Assembly (NCBI GenBank): GCA_031276175.1 | Contig: JAISNP010000035.1 | Coordinates: 1-36,627, forward strand | Origin: Tannerella sp. | Lineage (GTDB): Bacteria; Bacteroidota; Bacteroidia; Bacteroidales; Tannerellaceae | Direction of reading: 5' to 3' | Length of the DNA stretch: 36,627 nucleotides | Part shown: piece after piece, positions 435-27,698 of the stretch | Layout of the letters: each line of letters opens with the position of its first letter | How positions within the stretch are numbered: position 1 is the stretch's first letter | The notes under the pieces: generated by a model | Told to the model about the DNA's origin: nothing | Seen by the model: only the letters and a program-made list of their open reading frames with translations | The model's database searches: none | Translations under genes and position numbers: made by a program

Positions 435-2117
435 ATGGCTGATGACAAGAAAATAATTTTCTCAATGGTGGGGGTAAGCAAGATATTCCCTCCGCAAAAG
501 CAAGTGCTCAAAAACATCTATCTTTCATTCTTTTACGGTGCGAAGATCGGCATTATCGGACTGAACGGTTCGGGCAAGTCGACGTTGCTGAAAATCATTG
601 CCGGCATCGAAAAGGAGTATCAGGGAGACGTCGTTTCCTCGTCCGGTTACAGCGTGGGATACCTTGAACAGGATCCCGTACTGGGTGCTGGTAAAACGGT
701 GAAAGAGATTGTGCAGGAAGGGGTGCAGGATATTGTCGACTTGCTGAAGGAATTTGACGAGGTGAATGAAAAATTCGGCGATCCCGACATACAGGACGAT
801 TCCGACAAGATGGAAGCCCTGATGAACCGGCAGGCCGGATTGCAGGACAAAATCGACGCGGCAGATGCGTGGAATCTGGACAGCCGGCTGGAACGCGCCA
901 TGGATGCCCTGCGATGCCCGCCCGAAGAGCAGATTGTCGATACGCTGTCGGGAGGCGAACGTCGCCGGGTGGCTCTGTGTCGCCTGCTGTTGCAGCAGCC
1001 CGACGTGCTGCTCCTCGACGAACCGACGAACCATCTTGATGCCGAGTCCATTGACTGGCTCGAACAGCATTTGCAGCAGTATCAGGGGACGGTTATCTGT
1101 ATCACGCACGACCGTTACTTCCTCGACCACGTGGCCGGATGGATTTTGGAACTCGACCGCGGCGAAGGCATCCCGTGGAAAGGGAACTACTCGTCGTGGC
1201 TCGAACAGAAAACTCAACGTATGGCGCAGGAAGAGAAGCAGGCCGGCAAGCGCCGCAAGACGCTCGAACGCGAACTGGAATGGATTCGCATGGCGCCCAA
1301 AGCCCGGCAGTCCAAAGGGAAAGCGCGCCTCAACTCATACGAAACCCTGATGAACGAAGACCAGAAAGAACGCGAGTCGAAGCTCGAAATCTTTATCCCC
1401 AACGGCCCCCGGCTGGGAAACAAGGTCATCGAAGCCCGCCATGTGGCCAAAAGCTACGGCGACAAGCTGCTGTTCGACGATCTGAACTTTATGCTTCCAC
1501 CCAACGGCATCGTAGGCGTCATCGGACCGAACGGAGCGGGGAAAACGACGCTCTTCAAACTGATCATGGGCATTGAACAGCCCGACAAAGGCGAGTTCGA
1601 CACGGGCGAAACGGTCAAGATCGGCTATGCCGACCAGACGCACAGCGACATCGACCCCGCCAAAACAGTCTATCAGATCGTTTCGGGCGGAAACGAATTT
1701 ATACGCATCGGCGGGAGGGAAATCAATGCGCGCGCCTATCTGTCGCGTTTCAACTTTGCCGGCGCCGATCAGGAAAAAATATGCGCCATCTTGTCGGGCG
1801 GCGAGCGAAACCGTTTGCATCTGGCCATCACACTCAAATCCGAAGCCAACGTGCTCCTTCTCGACGAACCTACCAACGACATCGACGTGAACACGCTGCG
1901 CGCCCTCGAAGAAGGACTGGAAAGCTTTGCCGGATGCGCCGTCGTCATTTCGCACGACCGCTGGTTTCTCGACCGCATCTGTACCCACATCCTCTCTTTC
2001 GAAGGAAACTCGGAAGTCGTCTTTTTTCAGGGCGCATACTCCGAGTATGAAGAATATAAACGCAAACAGTCCGGCTATGCCGAGCCTGTACGCATCCGTT
2101 ACCGGAATTTAAACTAA
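435..2117 (+). CDS. ettA: Energy-dependent translational throttle protein EttA (ABC-F ATPase)
   Basis: This is a 560-residue soluble ABC-F protein with two ATPase domains and no membrane segments. The first domain has Walker A GLNGSGKST (residues 42-50), signature LSGGE near 171 and LLLDEPTNHLDAES. The second has Walker A GPNGAGKTT near 363, signature LSGGERN near 453 and LLLDEPTNDID. The linker between domains is basic and helical (residues about 260-320), as expected for the tRNA-contacting P-site motif. The N-terminal stretch LSFFYGAKIGIIGLNG and the segment GWILELDRGEGIPW are characteristic of EttA rather than Uup or YheS. EttA binds the ribosomal E site and gates elongation according to ATP/ADP. 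Length matches the family (about 555). The gene has its own -7 box and is followed after 31 bp by the DUF1080 gene. Confidence 0.95.
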   Translation: MADDKKIIFSMVGVSKIFPPQKQVLKNIYLSFFYGAKIGIIGLNGSGKSTLLKIIAGIEKEYQGDVVSSSGYSVGYLEQDPVLGAGKTVKEIVQEGVQDIVDLLKEFDEVNEKFGDPDIQDDSDKMEALMNRQAGLQDKIDAADAWNLDSRLERAMDALRCPPEEQIVDTLSGGERRRVALCRLLLQQPDVLLLDEPTNHLDAESIDWLEQHLQQYQGTVICITHDRYFLDHVAGWILELDRGEGIPWKGNYSSWLEQKTQRMAQEEKQAGKRRKTLERELEWIRMAPKARQSKGKARLNSYETLMNEDQKERESKLEIFIPNGPRLGNKVIEARHVAKSYGDKLLFDDLNFMLPPNGIVGVIGPNGAGKTTLFKLIMGIEQPDKGEFDTGETVKIGYADQTHSDIDPAKTVYQIVSGGNEFIRIGGREINARAYLSRFNFAGADQEKICAILSGGERNRLHLAITLKSEANVLLLDEPTNDIDVNTLRALEEGLESFAGCAVVISHDRWFLDRICTHILSFEGNSEVVFFQGAYSEYEEYKRKQSGYAEPVRIRYRNLN

Positions 2118-2148: not shown

Positions 2149-2790
2149 ATGAAAAAGTATCTATTTACGGCAATAATTGCCTTTGTATGCAGCGCCTCCG
2201 TGCGTGTGCACGCTCAAAAAGAAATCGCATTATTCAACGGAAAAGACCTGTCGAACTGGAAATTCGTTGTCGACGGCAACAAAGTTCCGGGCGAACAGGT
2301 ATTTTCGGTCAAAAACGGAGTCATCGAGATTGCCGGCGCCCCCCTCGGCTACATGTATACGACGCAGGCTTACGGCGACGGAAGCCTCCATGTAGAATGG
2401 CGATGGGTCGACGGAGCCTCGAACAGCGGAATCTTCCTGCTTATCGAAGACCCTAAAAATCCCTTTCCTAACGGCATAGAATGTCAATTACATGCAGGCG
2501 ATGCAGGCGATTTCGTCCTGCTCGGAGGCTCCGACCTCGCCGAATACAGGCAGCCCGAAGGACAGGAGCGCCCGAAATTTCCCGTAATCAAAAAACGCAA
2601 CGCCTCAAGCGAAAAGCCCGAAGGCGAATGGAATCGCGCGAAGATAGAAATACAGGACGGCGTAATCACCGTCTATATTAACGACGTACTTCAGAACATT
2701 GGAACCAACAAAGTGAAGAAAGGATACATCGGTCTGCAAAGCGAAGGGAAAAAAATTCAGTTTCGCAACATCACGCTGACAAAGAAATAA
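2149..2790 (+). CDS. Secreted DUF1080 (3-keto-disaccharide hydrolase type) protein
   Basis: This is a 213-residue protein. Residues 1-23 form a signal peptide (MKKYLFTAIIAFVCSASV, cleavage after VHA). The mature part opens with the family hallmark ALFNGKDLSNW and carries SNSGIFLL, GIECQLHAGD and a closing IGLQSEGKKIQFRNI, the laminin-G-like fold of DUF1080. Members are linked to cleavage of 3-keto-glycosides and other sugar metabolism, acting in the periplasm or at the cell surface. The substrate of this one cannot be inferred. It follows ettA by 31 bp with no visible terminator between them, so read-through is possible, although the functions are unrelated. The next promoter (trp) starts 40 bp after the stop. 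Confidence 0.85.
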   Translation: MKKYLFTAIIAFVCSASVRVHAQKEIALFNGKDLSNWKFVVDGNKVPGEQVFSVKNGVIEIAGAPLGYMYTTQAYGDGSLHVEWRWVDGASNSGIFLLIEDPKNPFPNGIECQLHAGDAGDFVLLGGSDLAEYRQPEGQERPKFPVIKKRNASSEKPEGEWNRAKIEIQDGVITVYINDVLQNIGTNKVKKGYIGLQSEGKKIQFRNITLTKK

Positions 2791-2830
2791 CCGCCGTATC
2801 TGCAACAAGCAAAAAAAAATAACAAAAAGA

Positions 2831-2861
2831 TTTGCGGATTCGAAAACATGCAGTATTTTTG
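2831..2861 (+). promoter_or_regulatory. trp operon promoter
   Basis: The -33 element is TTTG at 2831-2834. The -7 box is TATTTTTG at 2854-2861, with a 19-bp spacer, which is the expected Bacteroidota arrangement. Transcription should start near 2868, only about 9-15 nt before the leader ORF. Confidence 0.75.
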
Positions 2862-2876
2862 CAGCCGTAAAACGAA

Positions 2877-2945
2877 ATGATAATGATAAAATCTTATATA
2901 AATACATGTTGGTGGTGGCGCTCGCAATTTCAATTTTGTGAGTAG
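2877..2945 (+). CDS. trpL: trp operon leader peptide with three Trp codons
   Basis: A 22-codon ORF reads MIMIKSYINTCWWWRSQFQFCE and ends with TAG at 2943-2945. It may instead start at the second ATG (2883). The Trp codons TGG TGG TGG are consecutive at 2910-2918. It sits just after the trp promoter and before an intrinsic terminator that precedes trpB, so it has the position and content of an attenuation leader peptide. Ribosome stalling at the Trp codons under Trp shortage would leave 2936-2944 free. A ribosome reaching the stop codon would cover that segment. The peptide itself probably has no function beyond sensing charged tRNA-Trp. Confidence 0.85.
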   Translation: MIMIKSYINTCWWWRSQFQFCE

Positions 2946-3015
2946 CATACCCGATAATATTTATTATGTTTTTTGGTAAAAAAAGGCTTGTCATACTCAC
3001 GACAAGTCTTTTTTT
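2936..3015 (+). promoter_or_regulatory. trp attenuator: antiterminator and terminator pair
   Basis: GTGAGTA (2938-2944), overlapping the leader stop codon, is the exact reverse complement of TACTCAC (2994-3000). One more U-G and one A-U pair extend it to 2936-2944 with 2994-3002. The second partner is the terminator loop plus the first two bases of its 3' arm. Two local hairpins, ATAATA/TATTAT (2954-2967) and TTTTTT/AAAAAA (2969-2983), lie inside and would close the distance. The second also takes up the terminator's A tract. The antiterminator and terminator should therefore be mutually exclusive. This is read from complementarity, with no energies computed. Confidence 0.75.
2978..3015 (+). 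terminator. Intrinsic terminator (attenuator) before trpB
   Basis: The core stem GGCTTGTC (2985-2992) pairs with GACAAGTC (3001-3008) with one G-U pair and an 8-nt loop. It is flanked by seven A (2978-2984) and seven T (3009-3015), which extend the stem and give the U tract. It lies 32 bp before the trpB start and after the Trp-rich leader ORF. Confidence 0.85.
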
Positions 3016-3047
3016 GTTGTCACAGGAATATACATTAATATATATAC

Positions 3048-4238
3048 ATGAAGAAAAAGTATCAAGTAGACGAAAACGGATATTACGGACGGTTCGGCGG
3101 GACATACGTTCCGGAAATACTCTACCGCTGCGTAAAGGATTTGCAGGAAAGGTATCTCTCCGAGCTTGAAGACGAAACGTTTCAACACACGTACCGCGAA
3201 CTGCTGCGCGACTACGCCGGGCGCCCCTCACCCCTGTACCACGCCTCTCGGTTAAGCCGCGAGACGGGTTGCCGCATCTATCTCAAGCGCGAAGACCTGA
3301 ACCACACCGGGGCGCACAAGATAAACAATGCCGTCGGGCAGATACTGCTGGCGCAGCGCATGGGCAAAAGCCGCATCATCGCCGAGACGGGCGCGGGGCA
3401 ACACGGTGTGGCCGTAGCCACGGTCTGCGCCCTGATGAACATGCCCTGCGTCGTATATATGGGACGGACGGACGTGGAACGGCAGCAGCCGAACGTGCAG
3501 CGGATGCAGATGCTCGGCGCCACGGTAGCGCCCGTCACTTCGGGTAACATGACGCTCAAGGATGCTACGAACGAAGCCATCCGCGACTGGTGCTGCCATC
3601 CGGCGGACACGTTTTACATCATCGGCTCCACCACCGGCCCGCATCCGTATCCCGACATGGTGGCGCGCCTGCAATCGATAATCAGCGAAGAAATCAAATG
3701 GCAACTGCGCGAAAAGGAAGGGCGCGACTATCCCGACTGGCTGATAGCCTGCGTGGGAGGCGGGAGCAATGCCGCCGGCACGATCTATCATTATACGGAC
3801 GACGAGCGGGTGAAGATCGTCCTTGCCGAAGCCGGCGGTAAAGGCATCTCTTCGGGCATGAGCGCCGCCACCCTCCGGCTGGGACGCGAGGGGATCATAC
3901 ACGGCACCCGTACGCTGGTGATGCAAAACGAAGACGGGCAAATCGAAGAGCCTTATTCCATCTCCGCCGGACTGGACTATCCCGGCATAGGGCCTGTACA
4001 TGCGTATCTGGCCGAAATGAAAAGGATTGAAGCTCTGGCCATAGACGACGACGAGGCGCTGGAAGCTGCCTTTGAACTGACCCGGCTGGAGGGAATCATC
4101 CCCGCACTGGAAAGCGCTCATGCGCTGGGCGCGCTGAAAAAACTGCGCTTCCGTCCGGAGGATATCGTGGTGGTGACCGTCTCCGGGCGCGGAGACAAAG
4201 ACATGGACACCTATATCCGTACATCCATGAATCAATAA
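3048..4238 (+). CDS. trpB: Tryptophan synthase beta chain
   Basis: TrpB joins indole and L-serine to give L-tryptophan, the last step of the pathway, in complex with TrpA. The 396 residues match the family length. Near the N terminus is the TrpB hallmark GRFGGTYVPE (14-23). The PLP lysine is K91 in HKINNA. Also visible are AETGAGQHG, the phosphate-binding loop GGGSNAAGT, and HALGALKK near the end. It is the first structural gene of the operon, as usual in Bacteroidota (trpB-E-G-D-C-F-A), and directly follows the attenuator. The gap to trpE is 21 bp. No odd features. Confidence 0.97.
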   Translation: MKKKYQVDENGYYGRFGGTYVPEILYRCVKDLQERYLSELEDETFQHTYRELLRDYAGRPSPLYHASRLSRETGCRIYLKREDLNHTGAHKINNAVGQILLAQRMGKSRIIAETGAGQHGVAVATVCALMNMPCVVYMGRTDVERQQPNVQRMQMLGATVAPVTSGNMTLKDATNEAIRDWCCHPADTFYIIGSTTGPHPYPDMVARLQSIISEEIKWQLREKEGRDYPDWLIACVGGGSNAAGTIYHYTDDERVKIVLAEAGGKGISSGMSAATLRLGREGIIHGTRTLVMQNEDGQIEEPYSISAGLDYPGIGPVHAYLAEMKRIEALAIDDDEALEAAFELTRLEGIIPALESAHALGALKKLRFRPEDIVVVTVSGRGDKDMDTYIRTSMNQ

Positions 4239-4259: not shown

Positions 4260-5663
4260 ATGACCTATCATTTTACTACGGCTACAAAGCATCTGCTGGG
4301 CGACCTGCATACGCCGGCGAGCCTTTACCTGAAACTGCGCGATGTATATTCCAAATCCGCCCTGCTGGAAAGTTCGGATTTCCACGGCCACGAAAACAGT
4401 TTGTCCTTCATCGCCCTGTGTCCGCTGGCCGGCATCGGCATCAACCGCGCGGAAGCTACGCTGGATTATCCCGACGGCACAACGGAAGTGAAACCGCTCA
4501 CGAACGCTTATCCGGCGGCAGAGGCAATACACCGGTTTATGGACACCCTGTGCGTCACGGGCGAGGAGCGGCAGCATTGCGGCCTCTTCGGATACACGGC
4601 TTTCGACGCGGTTCGCTATTTCGAAAACATTCCGGTGGCAGAGGTACATCACGAAGATTCGGATGCGCCGGATATGCTCTATATCCTTTACAAGTACCTG
4701 CTGGTTTTCGACCATTTCAAGAACGGGTTGACGATTATCGAACTGCTGCGCGAAGGGGAGCAGGATCATCTGCGGGAGATTGAAACCTTGATTGAGAACC
4801 GCAACTTTGCGTCGTACAATTTCCGCACCGAGGGGGAGCGCACGTCGAGCATTACGGACGACGAATACCGGGCAATGGTGCGCGAGGGAGTGCGCCACTG
4901 TCTGCGCGGCGATGTATTTCAGATTGTGCTCAGCCGTCGCTTTGAGCAGGCTTTTCGCGGCGACGACTTTAAGGTCTACCGCAGTTTGCAGAACATTAAT
5001 CCTTCGCCATACTTGTTTTATTTCGACTTCGGCGGTTTCCGCATCTTCGGCTCTTCGCCCGAAACGCACTGCAAGATTACGGACGGACGGGTAAGCATTG
5101 ACCCGATTGCAGGCACCGCCTTCCGGTCGGGTAATGTGACGATCGACAAACATCGCGCCGAGGCATTGCTCAACGACCCGAAGGAGAACGCCGAGCACGT
5201 GATGCTTGTCGATCTGGCACGCAACGATCTTAGCCGCAACGCGCACAACGTGCGTATTGATTTCTATCGCGAAGTGCAGTATTACAGCCACGTGATGCAC
5301 CTCGTTTCCCGCATCAGCGGGGAGATTGATCCGGGAAGCAACACTGTCGGGACGTTTATAGACACCTTTCCCGCGGGGACGGTCAGCGGCGCGCCGAAAG
5401 TGCGCGCCATGGAACTGATCACGAAACTGGAGAGGCACAACCGCGGCGCATACGCCGGCTGCATCGGGTTCCTGGGACTGAACGGCAACCTGAATCAGGC
5501 CATCATGATACGCACGTTCGTCAGCCGCGGCAATGTGCTCTACTATCAGGCGGGGGCAGGCATCGTGGCGCTCAGCAACGACGAGCGCGAACTGCAGGAG
5601 GTAAACAACAAGCTGGAGGCGCTGAATCAGGCCATCCGGCAGGCAGAAACATTGATAAACTGA
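4260..5663 (+). CDS. trpE: Anthranilate synthase component I
   Basis: TrpE converts chorismate to anthranilate using ammonia delivered by TrpG. The 467-residue protein has the N-terminal anthranilate synthase domain with LLESS at residues 35-39, the motif of the tryptophan feedback site in TrpE. The C-terminal chorismate-binding domain shows DPIAGTAFRSG, LVDLARNDLSR, YSHVMHLVSRISG and FPAGTVSGAPKVRAMELI. Keeping LLESS argues for TrpE over PabB. The start ATG follows an A-rich spacer after trpB. trpG begins 10 bp after the stop, which supports coupled synthesis of the two subunits. Confidence 0.96.
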   Translation: MTYHFTTATKHLLGDLHTPASLYLKLRDVYSKSALLESSDFHGHENSLSFIALCPLAGIGINRAEATLDYPDGTTEVKPLTNAYPAAEAIHRFMDTLCVTGEERQHCGLFGYTAFDAVRYFENIPVAEVHHEDSDAPDMLYILYKYLLVFDHFKNGLTIIELLREGEQDHLREIETLIENRNFASYNFRTEGERTSSITDDEYRAMVREGVRHCLRGDVFQIVLSRRFEQAFRGDDFKVYRSLQNINPSPYLFYFDFGGFRIFGSSPETHCKITDGRVSIDPIAGTAFRSGNVTIDKHRAEALLNDPKENAEHVMLVDLARNDLSRNAHNVRIDFYREVQYYSHVMHLVSRISGEIDPGSNTVGTFIDTFPAGTVSGAPKVRAMELITKLERHNRGAYAGCIGFLGLNGNLNQAIMIRTFVSRGNVLYYQAGAGIVALSNDERELQEVNNKLEALNQAIRQAETLIN

Positions 5664-5673
5664 AAAAACGAAG

Positions 5674-6252
5674 ATGATGAACATACTGTTATTAGATAAT
5701 TACGATTCGTTCACCTACAACCTGCGGCATATACTGCTCGAACTGGGCGCCGGGGTGGAGGTGTATCGCAACGACCGGATTACGCCGGACGAAGCAGCGC
5801 GTTTCGACAAAATCGTCCTTTCGCCTGGCCCCGGCATCCCTTCGGAGGCGGGCATACTGCTGCCGCTGATTGCGCGCTGGGCGCCGACGAAAAGCATCCT
5901 TGGCGTCTGTCTCGGCGCGCAGGCCATCGGCGAAGCCTTCGGCGCACGGTTGCACAACCTCGCACGTGTATATCACGGCGTATGCAGCGACATCCGTACG
6001 CTGGCACCCGACCCGCTGTTCAGCGGACTGGAGCCGGGGTTCCGCGCAGGGAGATACCACTCGTGGGTCGTTTCGAAAGACGGCTTCCCCGATTGCCTGG
6101 AAATCACGGCGACCGATGCCGAAGAGGGAATGATCATGGCCCTGCGCCATCGCACGTACGACGTCCGCGGCATACAGTTCCATCCCGAATCCGTCCTGAC
6201 CCCGCAGGGGAAGCAAATCATCGCCAACTGGCTGAAAGAAGGAAAACATTAA
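5674..6252 (+). CDS. trpG: Anthranilate synthase component II (glutamine amidotransferase)
   Basis: This 192-residue class I glutamine amidotransferase supplies ammonia to TrpE. Motifs include LLLDNYDSFTYNL at the N terminus, LSPGPGIPSEAG (49-60), the nucleophile C79 in GVCLGAQ, and the His/Glu pair in QFHPES (H170, E172). The residue three after the nucleophile is Ala, where most relatives have His (CLGHQ). This His is common but not one of the three catalytic residues. Two ATGs are adjacent at 5674 and 5677 and either may be used. TrpG proteins often also serve PabB, and a pabB is not in this window. Confidence 0.95.
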   Translation: MMNILLLDNYDSFTYNLRHILLELGAGVEVYRNDRITPDEAARFDKIVLSPGPGIPSEAGILLPLIARWAPTKSILGVCLGAQAIGEAFGARLHNLARVYHGVCSDIRTLAPDPLFSGLEPGFRAGRYHSWVVSKDGFPDCLEITATDAEEGMIMALRHRTYDVRGIQFHPESVLTPQGKQIIANWLKEGKH

Positions 6253-6277
6253 ACATCACAATTTATACACACACGCT

Positions 6278-7276
6278 ATGAAGCAAATATTATACCGGCT
6301 TTCCGAACACCGCTACCTGTGCCGGGACGAAGCCCGGACGCTCCTGCAGGACATCGCGGAGCATAAGTACAACGAAGCGCAGATTGCAAGCCTGATCACG
6401 GTATTCCTGATGCGCAACATCTCCGTCGACGAGTTGGGCGGCTTCCGCGATGCGCTGCTCGACATGAGCCTGCCCGTCGATTTGTCCGACTATCCGTCGA
6501 TCGACATCGTGGGCACGGGCGGCGACGGGAAGAACACGTTTAACATCAGCACCGCCGCCTGCTTCACGCTGGCCGGCGCCGGATACCACGTCGTCAAGCA
6601 CGGCAACTACGGCGCCACGTCGGTGAGCGGCGCCAGCAACGTGATGGAGCAGCACGGCGTAAAGTTCACCACCTGCATCGACGTCATGCGCCGCTCAATG
6701 GATGCCTGCCGCATCGCCTACCTGCACGCCCCGCTCTTCAACCCCGCCCTCAAGGCCGTCGCCACGGTGCGCAGGAACCTCGCCGTGCGCAGCTTCTTCA
6801 ACATCCTCGGGCCGCTCGTCAACCCCACACGCCCCCGCTACCAACTGCTCGGCGTATACAGCCTCTCCCTTGCGCGGCTATACACGTATGCCTATCAGGA
6901 CATCGGGCTGCGCTTCGGCGTGGTGCACAGTCTTGACGGATACGACGAGATTTCGCTCACGGGCGAATTTAAAATCGCCCTTCCCGACAGGGAAAAAATC
7001 TACACCCCCGAAATGCTCCGGCTTCCGCGCACGCAGGAATCCGACCTCTTCGGAGGCGACACGCCCGCCGACGCGGCGCGAATCTTCGACGCCGTGATGC
7101 GCAACACCGCCACGGCGGCGCAACGCAACTGCGTCATCGCCAACGCCGCCTTTGCTGTTCAGGTGATATGTCCGGAAAAGAAAATAGACGACTGCCTTGC
7201 CGAAGCCGCCGAATCGCTGGAAAGCGGCAGGGCGCTGGCCACGCTGAATAAGTTTATCGAAATAAACGGACGGTGA
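6278..7276 (+). CDS. trpD: Anthranilate phosphoribosyltransferase
   Basis: TrpD transfers phosphoribose from PRPP to anthranilate. The 332-residue protein shows the PRPP-binding loop GTGGDGKNTFNIS around residues 78-90, KHGNYGATS followed by SGASNVMEQHG, and FFNILGPLVNP. These are the class signatures of the TrpD/nucleoside phosphorylase II fold. Length fits the family (about 330-345). It follows trpG by 25 bp and precedes trpC by 45 bp, both gaps without terminators. It is a separate gene, not the TrpG-TrpD fusion seen in enterobacteria. Confidence 0.96.
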   Translation: MKQILYRLSEHRYLCRDEARTLLQDIAEHKYNEAQIASLITVFLMRNISVDELGGFRDALLDMSLPVDLSDYPSIDIVGTGGDGKNTFNISTAACFTLAGAGYHVVKHGNYGATSVSGASNVMEQHGVKFTTCIDVMRRSMDACRIAYLHAPLFNPALKAVATVRRNLAVRSFFNILGPLVNPTRPRYQLLGVYSLSLARLYTYAYQDIGLRFGVVHSLDGYDEISLTGEFKIALPDREKIYTPEMLRLPRTQESDLFGGDTPADAARIFDAVMRNTATAAQRNCVIANAAFAVQVICPEKKIDDCLAEAAESLESGRALATLNKFIEINGR

Positions 7277-7321
7277 CGGACAAAATATTCCATCCCCGAC
7301 ATATAAACGGTAAAAAAAGAC

Positions 7322-8143
7322 ATGGATATACTGGAAGCCATCGTAGCAAACAAACGCCGCGAAGTAGCGGCGCAGAAAGCAGCCGTTTCGCTTGAGACGA
7401 TGCTGTCGATAAGCGGCAGCCATATGGAACGCCCCGTGGTCTCAATGCGCGCGGCGCTCGGCCGGTCGCCCTCCGGCATCATTGCCGAGTTCAAGCGACG
7501 CTCGCCCTCCAAAGGTCTGCTGCATCCGGAGGCAAAGGTCGAAGACGTGGCGACGGCATACGCACGCGGAGGAGCGGCGGCCTGTTCGATTCTGACGGAC
7601 AGCGATTTCTTCGGCGGATCGCTGACCGATCTCCGCCGCGCCCGCGCCGCCGTCGGCCTGCCACTGTTGCGCAAAGATTTCATTGTCGACGAATACCAGC
7701 TTTTTCAGGCGCGGGCGACGGGCGCAGACGCCGTGCTGCTGATTGCGGCCATCCTGACGCCCGACGAGTGCGAGCGGCTGGCACAGACCGCCCATGCGCT
7801 GGAGATGGAGGTGATGCTCGAAATACACGCCGAGGCGGAATTGTCGCATCTCAATCCGCACGTCGACATGCTGGGCGTGAACAACCGTCATCTGGGCACG
7901 TTCGACACTTCGGTCGAAAACTCGTTCCGCCTCGCAGCACAGGCGCGGCGGCACGCGGGCGAAGGCGCCGGCGCTCCGCTGCTCGTATCCGAAAGCGGGC
8001 TGGCGGATGTCGCCGACGTGCACCGGCTGCGGCAGGCCGGATTTCGCGGCTTCCTGATAGGCGAAACGTTTATGAAAACGCCACGTCCGGGCGAAACGCT
8101 GCAAGCCTTTGTCCGCAACCTTACCGCTTTGAGCGAGGAATAA
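7322..8143 (+). CDS. trpC: Indole-3-glycerol phosphate synthase
   Basis: TrpC closes the indole ring, turning CdRP into indole-3-glycerol phosphate. The 273-residue TIM barrel carries IIAEFKRRSPSKG (about residues 52-64, with the catalytic lysine), ILTDSDFFGGS, LLRKDFIVDEYQ and the LGVNNRHLGTF strand, ending with VSESGL and GFLIGETFMK. It is a monofunctional enzyme, since trpF is a separate gene starting 4 bp after the stop. This spacing indicates translational coupling. Confidence 0.96.
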   Translation: MDILEAIVANKRREVAAQKAAVSLETMLSISGSHMERPVVSMRAALGRSPSGIIAEFKRRSPSKGLLHPEAKVEDVATAYARGGAAACSILTDSDFFGGSLTDLRRARAAVGLPLLRKDFIVDEYQLFQARATGADAVLLIAAILTPDECERLAQTAHALEMEVMLEIHAEAELSHLNPHVDMLGVNNRHLGTFDTSVENSFRLAAQARRHAGEGAGAPLLVSESGLADVADVHRLRQAGFRGFLIGETFMKTPRPGETLQAFVRNLTALSEE

Positions 8144-8147
8144 AATC

Positions 8148-8813
8148 ATGTCTGCTCAGGAAATAAAAATTAAAGTGTGCGGAATGCGCGAAGCCGCAAA
8201 CATCCGCGCGGTGGAGCGGCTGGACGTCGACTGGATGGGATTTATCTTCTATCCGCCGTCGCCGCGACACGTCTCCGGCTCCGAGGCGGACGCGGAAGCC
8301 ATCCGCCGGTGCGGGCGGACGAAGGTCGGCGTATTTGTCGACGCACCTGTCGGCGAAATGGCCTACGCGGCGGCACGCTACGGATTAGACTGCCTGCAAC
8401 TGCACGGCAGCGAATCGCCGGACACGTGCCGTGCCGTGCAAACGCTCGGATACCCCGTCATCAAAGCCTTTCACATCGCCGACGCCGACGACCTGAAGCG
8501 CACGGCAGACTACGACGGGGCAGCATCCTTTTTCCTCTTCGACACGAAGTGCGACGGCTTTGGCGGTTCGGGGCGGCGGTTCGACTGGTCGGCGCTGCAC
8601 GCTTACGACCAACCCACACCCTTCATCCTCAGCGGCGGAATCACCCCGCAGTGCGCCGACGAACTGCTGCGCTTCCGCCACCCCGCAATGATCGGCGCAG
8701 ACCTGAACAGCGGCTTCGAACTTGCCCCCGCGCTGAAAGACGCCGGCGCGCTGGACGCATTTATCCGTAAATTAAAACCGAAACATCACGCATCGAACCC
8801 ACAAACCATTTAA
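8148..8813 (+). CDS. trpF: Phosphoribosylanthranilate isomerase
   Basis: TrpF isomerises phosphoribosylanthranilate to CdRP by an Amadori rearrangement. The 221-residue TIM barrel has the general-base cysteine in IKVCGM (C11), DWMGFIFYPPSPRHV, LQLHGSES, the catalytic Asp in LFDTKCDGFGGSG (D132) and a phosphate-binding FILSGGI loop. The start follows trpC by 4 bp and trpA begins 10 bp after the stop. Length is normal for the family. Confidence 0.95.
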   Translation: MSAQEIKIKVCGMREAANIRAVERLDVDWMGFIFYPPSPRHVSGSEADAEAIRRCGRTKVGVFVDAPVGEMAYAAARYGLDCLQLHGSESPDTCRAVQTLGYPVIKAFHIADADDLKRTADYDGAASFFLFDTKCDGFGGSGRRFDWSALHAYDQPTPFILSGGITPQCADELLRFRHPAMIGADLNSGFELAPALKDAGALDAFIRKLKPKHHASNPQTI

Positions 8814-8823
8814 CAATTATCGC

Positions 8824-9600
8824 ATGAATCGCATTACACAACTCTTCGAATCCTGCAAACAGGGCGGCATCCTGTCCGTATATTTCACCGCAGGCTATCC
8901 CGCCCTCCACGACACGAAGCCCATACTCGAAGCGCTCGAAAGCCGCGGCGTACATATGGCCGAAATAGGCATCCCCTTTTCCGACCCGCTGGCCGACGGC
9001 CCCGTCATACAGCAGTCGTCCGCACAGGCGTTGCGCAACGGCATGTCGCTTCGGCTCCTCTTCCGGCAACTGCGCGACATACGCCGCACGGTCAACATCC
9101 CGCTCATCCTCATGGGATACCTCAACCCCGTGATGCAATACGGCTTCGAAGCCTTCTGCCGCGCCTGCACCGACGCCGGCATAGACGGAATCATCATCCC
9201 CGACCTGCCATTCGACGACTACACGGCAAGCTACAAAGCCACAGCCGAACGTCACGGACTGAAAATCATCATGCTCGTCACGCCCGAAACGCCGGACGCA
9301 CGCATCCGCCTGATTGACCGCCACACCGGCGGATTCATCTACGCCGTGTCGAGCGCCTCCGTCACCGGCGCGCAAAAAGAATTTGACGAAAACAGCCAAG
9401 CCTTCTTTCGCCGCATCCGCGCAATGCACCTGCGCAATCCGCACCTCATCGGCTTCGGCGTCGGCAATAAAGCCACTTACGACGCCGCGCTTGCCCACGC
9501 GCACGGCGCCATCATCGGAAGCCGGTTTGTCGGGCTGCTCCAACAAAGCGCCTCGCCGGAAGAAGCCGTCGACAGGCTGCTCCGGGCAATTACCGTCTGA
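8824..9600 (+). CDS. trpA: Tryptophan synthase alpha chain
   Basis: TrpA cleaves indole-3-glycerol phosphate and channels indole to TrpB. The 258-residue TIM barrel shows SVYFTAGYP (18-26) and MAEIGIPFSDPLADGP with the catalytic Glu47 and Asp58, then GIIIPDLPFDDY, GGFIYAVSSASVTGA and GFGVGNK. It is the last gene of the operon, at the opposite end from trpB as usual in Bacteroidota. No strong intrinsic terminator follows directly. The first good hairpin is at 9731-9750. Confidence 0.96.
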   Translation: MNRITQLFESCKQGGILSVYFTAGYPALHDTKPILEALESRGVHMAEIGIPFSDPLADGPVIQQSSAQALRNGMSLRLLFRQLRDIRRTVNIPLILMGYLNPVMQYGFEAFCRACTDAGIDGIIIPDLPFDDYTASYKATAERHGLKIIMLVTPETPDARIRLIDRHTGGFIYAVSSASVTGAQKEFDENSQAFFRRIRAMHLRNPHLIGFGVGNKATYDAALAHAHGAIIGSRFVGLLQQSASPEEAVDRLLRAITV

Positions 9601-9928: not shown

Positions 9929-11068
9929 ATGAACTACCGTACATTAGAATGGAAAGATTTGTCGGTTCACGCCCGGCTCGGCATTTTCAGCCGACCGGGG
10001 GCGAATATCCCCGAATATCACACGATACTCCGAATCACCAATACCACATACGACGCAGTGCGCCGGCACGAACGCATGGAAAGAGCCGTCGGACGGCTGC
10101 TTGAAGAATTGCCCGGCGCCGAAATCGTCTGGAAACGTTATCTCGTCGACGACGCTGCCGGCCAATACCCGCTCATCCCGCGCGGACAGGGCGACGCAGC
10201 CGTTTCCGTCGTGCAGCAACCGCCCGCCGACGGTAGCAAAGTCGCATTGTGGCTATACCTGATACCCGGCGGATTCCTGTCCGGCAATGAACGGGCTGCG
10301 GTTGTCACACACTCGGAGTACCGCCATCTATTTCACACACAGTTGTATGCGCCTGCCAACGACGAAGCGGAACAAACGAGGCTCATGTTCATGCAATACA
10401 TCGACCTTCTCTCGACCGAAGGGTGCACACTGGCCGACAACTGTATGCGGACGTGGATTTTCGTACAAGCCATCGACGTGCGCTACGCGGGAATGGTGGC
10501 CGCGCGCAGGACGTGTTTCGAACGGGAAGGATTGACAAAAGATACGCATTTTATTGCCGGTACGGGCATCGAAGGGAAGCACGTACGTCCCGATACGCGG
10601 GTGTTTATGGACGCTTACGCCGTCGAAGGGCTGCTGCCCGAACAAATCCGCTACCTTCGCGCCCCGACGCATCTCAACCCGACGCACGAGTATGGCGTGA
10701 CATTCGAGCGCGGCACGGCCATACAGTACGGCGACCGCCGGCACGTCTTCATTTCCGGTACGGCAAGCATCAACAATCGTGGAGAAATCGTACATCCCTC
10801 GGATGTGACGAAACAGGCCGGACGCATGTGGGAAAACATCCTGACGCTTCTCTGCGAGGCCGGCGCCGGTGCGGAAGATATTGCCTGCATGATCGTATAC
10901 TTGCGCAATGCCCCGGACTACCGGATTATTCGCGACTGGCTGGCGGAAACCTGTCCGCACGTGCCCAAAGCAGTCGTATGGGCGCCCGTATGCCGTCCGG
11001 GCTGGCTGATAGAAGCGGAGTGTATGGCCATAACCGCTGCAGAAAACGGGCGGTTTGCGGCGTTTTGA
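9929..11068 (+). CDS. Rid (YjgF) fold protein, chorismatase (FkbO/Hyg5)-like
   Basis: This 379-residue soluble protein has a divergent N-terminal half and a C-terminal RidA/YjgF-type domain (about 250-370). The C-terminal domain contains FISGTASI at 274-281, then GEIVHPSDVTKQAGRMWENI and CMIVYLRN. The pairing of an N-terminal domain with a Rid-like domain, and the GTASI segment, resemble chorismatases (FkbO, Hyg5, XanB2), which hydrolyse or convert chorismate. That assignment is inference from motifs and length. A plain Rid-superfamily role, such as enamine/imine hydrolysis, is the alternative. It has its own promoter region after the trp operon, the major chorismate consumer in this window. 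It converges with mtgA, with 2 bp between the stop codons. Confidence 0.6.
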   Translation: MNYRTLEWKDLSVHARLGIFSRPGANIPEYHTILRITNTTYDAVRRHERMERAVGRLLEELPGAEIVWKRYLVDDAAGQYPLIPRGQGDAAVSVVQQPPADGSKVALWLYLIPGGFLSGNERAAVVTHSEYRHLFHTQLYAPANDEAEQTRLMFMQYIDLLSTEGCTLADNCMRTWIFVQAIDVRYAGMVAARRTCFEREGLTKDTHFIAGTGIEGKHVRPDTRVFMDAYAVEGLLPEQIRYLRAPTHLNPTHEYGVTFERGTAIQYGDRRHVFISGTASINNRGEIVHPSDVTKQAGRMWENILTLLCEAGAGAEDIACMIVYLRNAPDYRIIRDWLAETCPHVPKAVVWAPVCRPGWLIEAECMAITAAENGRFAAF

Positions 11069-18365: not shown

Positions 18366-18440
18366 GAACTGTTAGCTCAGTTGGTTTAGAGCGCCGCCTT
18401 GACAGGGCGGAGGTCGCCGGTTCGACCCCGGCACAGTTCA
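18366..18440 (+). tRNA. tRNA-Val (anticodon GAC)
   Basis: Acceptor arms GAACTGT (18366-18372) and ACAGTTC (18433-18439) pair perfectly, with discriminator A at 18440. The anticodon stem is CCGCC/GGCGG with loop TTGACAG, so the anticodon is GAC (18401-18403), reading GUC/GUU valine codons. The D-loop is GCTCAGTTGGTTTAGAGC-like and the T-loop is TTCGACC. CCA is not encoded. It is divergent from cysS, with its own -7 box. Confidence 0.95.
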
Positions 18441-27610: not shown

Positions 27611-27698
27611 GGAGAGATGCTCGAGTGGTTGAAGAGGCACGCCTGGAAAGCGTGTATACGCCTAAAGCGTATCGCGGGTTCGAATCCCGCTTTCTCCG
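27611..27698 (+). tRNA. tRNA-Ser (anticodon GGA)
   Basis: An 88-nt class II tRNA. Acceptor GGAGAGA (27611-27617) pairs with TTTCTCC (27691-27697) with one G-U pair, and the discriminator is G at 27698. The anticodon stem is CACGC/GCGTG with loop CTGGAAA, giving GGA at 27645-27647, which reads UCC/UCU serine codons. The long variable arm TATACGCCTAAAGCGTAT and the T-loop TTCGAAT are clear. CCA is not encoded. Confidence 0.95.

Follow-up and report, generated by a model that had tools for sequence, protein, structure and literature searches.

Three competing helices in a predicted ribosome-mediated attenuator of a Tannerella trp operon

Introduction

On a contig of Tannerella sp. (GenBank assembly GCA_031276175.1, contig JAISNP010000035.1), a short reading frame with consecutive tryptophan codons and an intrinsic terminator lie just ahead of trpB, which raises the question of whether the trp genes are controlled by transcription attenuation there, and through which competing RNA structures. 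The window considered here is the whole stretch of 36,627 nucleotides that was analysed. A passage of a 2010 paper stated that, to its authors' knowledge, no leader-peptide system had been shown outside Proteobacteria and Actinobacteria (PMC2965389). Table 1 of Weinberg et al. 2010 enters the Bacteroid-trp motif as 'RNA? y, cis-reg? y, switch? n, Bacteroidetes' (PMC2864571), and a text search of the main text of that paper located 'trp' solely in this table row. Passages of PMC6414381 describe Bacteroid-trp as resembling the E. coli Trp leader and place it ahead of the Flavobacterium psychrophilum trp operon; the discussion of that paper attributes to the RNA a putative role like that in E. 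coli. Because these passages liken Bacteroid-trp to the E. coli leader, an attenuator role for the family has already been proposed in print. In the open-access literature, the supplement of Weinberg et al. excluded, no paper on the antiterminator of this family was recognised.

A preliminary description of the locus proposed a Trp leader-peptide attenuator whose antiterminator strand covers the leader stop codon, and held that only two competing structures are needed. Here, comparison with relatives and stepwise folding make it very probable that this element, a member of Rfam family RF01692, attenuates transcription of the trp operon by a ribosome-mediated mechanism. They also point to a third conserved helix, a protector hairpin that the preliminary description had missed; its attenuator reading is upheld and its two-structure scheme is not.

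Results

Organisation of the trp leader and its neighbourhood

The features of the locus, all on the plus strand, are as follows.

2831-2861 (+), promoter of Bacteroidota type, read from the sequence: TTTG at 2831-2834, a 19-nt spacer and TATTTTTG at 2854-2861 (-7)
2865-2992 (+), Rfam match to RF01692 (Bacteroid-trp): whole model 1-131, 53.4 bits, gathering score 49
2877-2945 (+), leader peptide ORF: ATG at 2877, 22 codons, MIMIKSYINTCWWWRSQFQFCE, stop TAG at 2943-2945
2910-2918 (+), three consecutive Trp codons, TGGTGGTGG, conserved in relatives: putative sensor
2921-2927 (+), segment 1, 5' strand of the protector hairpin: pairs with 2936-2942 over 7 bp (fold and relatives)
2936-2944 (+), segment 2, shared strand over the leader stop, UUGUGAGUA: partner is segment 1 (protector) or 2994-3002 (antiterminator)
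2985-3008 (+), intrinsic terminator hairpin: 8-bp core 2985-2992 / 3001-3008, A/U pairs outside (fold and relatives)
2994-3002 (+), segment 3, antiterminator partner, UACUCACGA: terminator loop and first two bases of the 3' arm
3009-3015 (+), terminator U-tract, from the sequence
3048-4238 (+), trpB, first gene of the cluster: TIGR00263, 575.3 bits, cut-off 392.45
4260-9600 (+), trpE, trpG, trpD, trpC, trpF and trpA, by NCBIfam

The promoter, the 22-codon leader with its W-W-W run, the terminator and the complementarity between 2936-2944 and 2994-3002 were all confirmed on the sequence at the positions given in the preliminary description, as were the 17 nt separating the last Trp codon from the antiterminator strand. 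TTTG at 2831-2834 is taken by us to be the -33 part of a Bacteroidota promoter. A second candidate start of the leader ORF is the internal ATG at 2883. The copy of TGGTGGTGG at 2910-2918 is the only one in the window on either strand, with 0.09 expected per shuffle. The pairing of UUGUGAGUA with UACUCACGA comprises nine pairs, one of them G-U and seven of them uninterrupted Watson-Crick pairs, and shares just 2 bp with the terminator stem. A simple terminator scan listed the 2985-3008 hairpin for the minus strand only. The region 2868-3020 folds at -40.6 kcal/mol compared with -25.1 kcal/mol in shuffles (z -5.06, equalled by 0 of 200 shuffles), and this fold contains the protector hairpin 2921-2927 / 2936-2942.

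The trp operon setting also held, with trpB at 3048 followed by trpE, G, D, C, F and A by NCBIfam. Curated NCBIfam cut-offs were exceeded by trpD, trpC and trpA, and the trpG/papA subfamily cut-off by trpG; trpE and trpF were named by their best NCBIfam matches, which lie under the cut-offs. The gene after trpA (9929-11068, plus strand) is weakly FkbO/Hyg5 chorismatase-like (45.8 bits, cut-off 325) with an L-PSP / RutC-like domain, and a chorismate-related function next to the trp cluster is possible. Upstream lie genes for an EttA-type ABC-F protein (435-2117, plus strand; TIGR03719) and for a protein with a 3-keto-disaccharide hydrolase domain (2149-2790, plus strand; PF06439). Rfam placed tRNA genes at 18366-18440 and 27611-27698, both on the plus strand. 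Rfam matches to STnc370, BTnc231, RsaE, SurC, Atu_C9 and ncr1575 were under their gathering scores and were taken as chance.

The Trp leader is conserved upstream of trpB

Relatives were collected through TrpB, taking the best 80 of 586 candidates from named genomes plus members of the genus. Among these best 80, the closest named TrpB proteins came from two Tannerella sp. metagenome-assembled genomes (87% identity). The 121 loci obtained were reduced to 99 distinct trpB upstream regions by dropping one without trpB, two with short upstream sequences and 19 duplicates. A WW-containing leader ORF was found in 89 of the 99. Five more regions carry a leader that starts with GTG or in which the Trp codons are single or split, giving 94 in all, and none was found in the other five. 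Counted from the last Trp codon through the end of the stop, the spacing was exactly 27 nt in 75 of the 94 leaders. TAnnTTTG, which PMC6414381 names in one passage as the promoter motif of Bacteroidetes, stands together with an upstream TTG ahead of all 94 leaders, whereas TAnnTTTG was seen in 6 of 94 after one shuffle. An intrinsic terminator before the first gene was detected by script in 92 of the 94 leader regions; the two that the script misses (L032 and L064) have hairpins visible in the sequence.

Two further observations concern variants of this arrangement. In one genome (G003), no leader was found at trpB (L015, contig C139), and a leader scoring 46.8 bits, under the RF01692 threshold, precedes a trpE-like gene on another contig (L009, C113). 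Which gene the leader precedes may depend on which one comes first in the operon. In six loci (L017, L031, L032, L035, L046 and L121) the usual stop is missing and, beyond the last Trp codon, the frame runs on for 17-20 codons, counting the stop; in L017, L031 and L046 the strong pairing of the stop region is kept all the same. These leaders could serve as natural tests of whether the position of the stop matters.

Three conserved helices compete for shared strands

Alignment A1 comprised 81 sequences, after L121 and 10 near-identical rows had been left out of the 92 loci with a scripted terminator. The paired fraction exceeded that of every slid control for all three helices examined in A1. 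For the protector (2921-2927 / 2936-2942), 85.3% of cells were paired, with two-sided change at 8 of 9 pairs and slid controls at 29-45%; for the terminator, the corresponding values were 96.7%, 11 of 12 pairs and 28-53%. The antiterminator (2936-2944 / 2994-3002) was paired in 85.2% of cells, or 93.3% in its seven-pair helix, with two-sided change at 7 of 10 pairs and slid controls at 19-67%, where the control that reaches 66.8% does so on fewer cells. In 500 shuffles of the antiterminator, three of five measures were never reached, and the other two were reached by 88 and 91 shuffles. RNAalifold applied to the relatives recovered the protector and the terminator unprompted. The protector and the antiterminator have a strand in common, and so do the antiterminator and the terminator; the alignment supports three conserved helices that are mutually exclusive.

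The pairing was further examined by exchanging strands among relatives. In 87 of 92 loci, the antiterminator duplex of the locus itself outdid the average duplex made with a strand swapped in from divergent relatives. Mean energies were -18.6 kcal/mol for own, -15.2 kcal/mol for swapped and -11.8 kcal/mol for shuffled duplexes, and the own duplex was better than all 100 shuffles in just 23 of 92. An antiterminator extended into the terminator's 5' arm was also considered and found little support (own better than swap in 61 of 91, own better than shuffle in 51 of 91). The preliminary description had named the terminator loop itself as the antiterminator's partner; the loop is indeed part of it, but in relatives the partner also takes in the top 4-5 nt of the 3' arm.

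The independence of the two-sided changes was judged on a quick TrpB tree. At the best antiterminator pair (columns 54/153, A-U to G-C), three changes occurred on one side and four on the other, with a single independent pair of changes on well-supported branches. Columns 53/154 showed 3 and 12 changes, in the same direction in about two of three independent pairs, and columns 51/157 and 58/145 showed no joint change on this tree. None of the antiterminator sign tests among the results listed fell below 0.05. The direction of compensation thus appears consistent at two central pairs, resting on a handful of Bacteroidales events. The check on trpB upstream regions suggested in the preliminary description therefore turned out in its favour, with conserved Trp codons and conserved pairing and with some compensating changes, few of them independent.

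Stepwise folding reproduces an attenuator switch

At equilibrium and with the terminator complete, the mean terminator probability was at least 0.88 in every ribosome state, and the antiterminator exceeded 0.5 in 6-8 of 91 sequences, even with a stalled ribosome. On its own, this result argues against a thermodynamic switch. Because folding of the complete leader at equilibrium is not discriminating, either here or in E. coli, a stepwise test was used. With assumed ribosome footprints, coarse steps and pseudoknots between loop and leader outside the model, the mean antiterminator probability at the point where the last antiterminator base has emerged was 0.80 for a ribosome stalled on the Trp codons, 0.16 for ribosome-free RNA and 0.00 when the ribosome sat at the stop. 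At this point the antiterminator was ahead of the terminator in 76, 23 and 0 of the 81 sequences under Trp stall, no ribosome and stop, respectively, and the probabilities for the window's own element were 0.91, 0.00 and 0.00. After four more nucleotides, the mean under stall had dropped to 0.27 (0.73 in the window), and once the terminator was complete the antiterminator stayed ahead under stall in 5 of 81 sequences, with a value of 0.01 or less in the window. The E. coli K-12 trp leader, used as a control with a slightly different measure, gave 0.87, 0 and 0 and also ended in the terminator.

The stretch of transcription in which the antiterminator was favoured spanned about 5 nt here (steps -2 to +2), whereas the E. 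coli leader gave about 11 nt (transcript ends 119 to 130). It is shorter here because the antiterminator's partner is the loop and the 3' arm. As the complete terminator wins in nearly all sequences, the switch would have to be kinetic under this model, and the element would behave like a textbook attenuator, its kinetic nature included. Sequence and folding together reveal the constituents of an E. coli-type attenuator, namely a leader ORF with Trp codons, a terminator, an antiterminator that excludes it and is masked when the ribosome is at the stop, and a protector opened by the stall.

These results bear on the claim that an antiterminator and a terminator suffice, with no functional protector and hence a scheme simpler than that of E. 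coli. Both the antiterminator pairing and the terminator on which that scheme relies are real. However, the protector competes for the antiterminator strand, is conserved with two-sided change at 8 of 9 pairs, was found unprompted by RNAalifold and dominates ribosome-free folding, with a mean probability of 0.73-0.89 over six steps. As the protector masks the antiterminator strand when no ribosome is present, the logic is that of E. coli, and a switch of two structures only is highly improbable.

Relation to RF01692 and distribution beyond the order

RF01692 is named 'Bacteroidete tryptophan peptide leader RNA'. The window's match scores over the gathering threshold, contains the Trp codons and is followed by trp genes; on this sequence evidence, the element is a well-supported further case of a catalogued family, and its kind is not new. 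At its 3' end the model reaches no farther than the terminator's 5' arm (2992) and so lacks the antiterminator partner strand and the terminator's second arm. The antiterminator partner is outside the family model because both match and model stop at that arm. What appears to be new here is that the switching parts of an RF01692 element have been mapped by comparison with relatives. Under strict filters, the family's own model matched 11 of 61 near relatives, six of them over threshold.

Of 296 genomes sampled from the phylum, 41, among them the genome of the window, had matches to a model built from A1 (R1). From 30 R1 loci, the window itself and one Bacteroidales locus were left out, and the 28 examined all belong to the same class and lie outside the order. 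WWW was present in all 28, and in 23 of them the stop region could form at least six uninterrupted Watson-Crick pairs with the terminator loop or 3' arm (mean 6.4 compared with 3.2 when shuffled, typically GUCGUGA with UCACGAC); these matches lean towards this pairing pattern because R1 contains both strands. The gene that follows was judged by eye to be trpE-like in 16 cases and trpD-like in one, and in the other 11 no ATG-started gene was found by script.

A Phe/Tyr leader precedes pheA in the same genome

A further, weak R1 match (E 0.044) lies elsewhere in the genome of the window (G000:C21:8357-8484, minus strand; loci L153/L155/L185). The leader there, MHKYFSTYFYFYFYFSGVKAGICM, has alternating Phe and Tyr codons and precedes a prephenate dehydratase gene (pheA), downstream of which are domain matches to an aminotransferase, a DAHP synthase with a chorismate mutase domain and a prephenate dehydrogenase. 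By these assignments the pheA cluster is a Phe and Tyr pathway.

A search for relatives of this locus (L156-L182) found one in 29 of 59 genomes drawn from the order Bacteroidales. The 30 loci were reduced to 28 by removing L183 and L184, in which no Phe/Tyr leader was seen, and to 27 with a scripted terminator (none in L162); the pairing tests used 25 loci, leaving out L157 and L182. A run of at least five Phe/Tyr codons was present in 23 of the 27 pheA upstream regions; none of the 99 trpB upstream regions had one, and shuffles averaged 0.1 of 27. Both Phe and Tyr occurred in 25 of the 27 runs. The stop region could form at least six Watson-Crick pairs with the 5' arm of the terminator in 20 of 25 loci (mean 7.0 compared with 4.0 when shuffled), and a locus's own pairing was better than the mean of swaps in all 25. 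No Rfam family scored over threshold in the 20 of 30 loci scanned, nor in L153. A paper on two groups of Phe-operon leader peptides is cited in a passage of PMC5009743, and a targeted search of the open-access literature recognised no paper on a Phe/Tyr leader in Bacteroidota.

Like E. coli leaders of the pheL/pheA type, this one carries codons for the products of its operon and combines an antiterminator with a terminator; it differs from the trp element of the window in its amino acids and in an antiterminator that pairs with the terminator 5' arm. The pheA leader is probably a second attenuator, frequent in Bacteroidales, and is a less fully tested but more novel lead than the trp element. 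We are inclined, on balance, to see in the two a Bacteroidota family of leader-peptide attenuators with at least two layouts. One would be the trp layout of Bacteroidales and other families of the class, whose antiterminator strand copies the top of the terminator 5' arm and captures the loop and 3' arm within a few nucleotides before the U-tract. In the other, with Phe/Tyr codons before the pheA cluster and no Rfam match in the loci scanned, a single leader would sense both end products.

Discussion

The proposed sequence of events begins with RNA polymerase transcribing the leader while a ribosome presumably translates it. If charged tRNA-Trp is scarce, the ribosome would stall at 2910-2918 and cover segment 1 (2921-2927). 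Segment 2 (2936-2944), thereby left free, would pair with the emerging 2994-3002, block the terminator and allow trpBEGDCFA to be transcribed. If Trp is plentiful, a ribosome that has reached the stop would cover segment 2, the terminator would form and transcription would end near 3015. With no ribosome, the protector of segments 1 and 2 would hold segment 2 and the terminator would form too. The antiterminator would be favoured for only a few nucleotides before the terminator is complete, and its action would be kinetic.

Another mode of sensing deserves consideration, in which the nascent leader peptide, like TnaC, senses free tryptophan and stalls the ribosome at its own stop codon. Similarity of the peptide does extend past the Trp codons, where many Bacteroidales have LQLxxS. 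The codons for these residues, however, constitute segments 1 and 2, so that RNA pairing accounts for their conservation; the residues themselves vary, with SQFQFCE, LQFTDCE and others in the window and its near kin and often NLRQTS in the R1 matches elsewhere in the class. A stall at the stop, moreover, would favour the terminator, which would mean repression rather than induction, and several adjacent Trp codons are the classic sensor of tRNA charging. An arrest peptide is accordingly less likely than attenuation that senses charging, and we consider it highly improbable.

Control of the same terminator by a TRAP-like protein or a T-box, with an incidental ORF, has precedent in the trp operons of other bacteria. 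No T-box match was returned by Rfam in the window at the gathering threshold or in 2780-3060 at E up to 1, and the conserved Trp codons, stop spacing and pairing at the stop would be superfluous under such models, which makes this possibility remote. Least probable of all, to a degree that makes it nearly negligible, is that an unregulated leader and an ordinary terminator lie together by chance: randomness alone can yield short ORFs and hairpins in a single genome, but conservation in 81 relatives, the Rfam match and the fold z of -5.06 contradict it.

Under the ribosome-mediated attenuator favoured here, a Bacteroidota RNA motif that is catalogued but little described would become a concrete switch whose base pairs can be named. 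Such an attenuator would also indicate that classic ribosome-mediated attenuation works with the promoters of Bacteroidota themselves. Translation starts in this phylum mostly lack a Shine-Dalgarno sequence, and attenuation would work there too. A late antiterminator that captures the loop yields a clear prediction on polymerase speed and pausing, and the Phe/Tyr leader suggests that further unannotated switches may exist in the phylum.

Compared with trpL of E. coli, the window's element has the same adjacent Trp codons, the same competition of protector, antiterminator and terminator for strands and the same stepwise switch. It differs from trpL in that segment 2 contains the leader stop and in that its antiterminator pairs with the loop and upper 3' arm of the terminator, whereas that of E. 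coli takes mainly the 5' arm.
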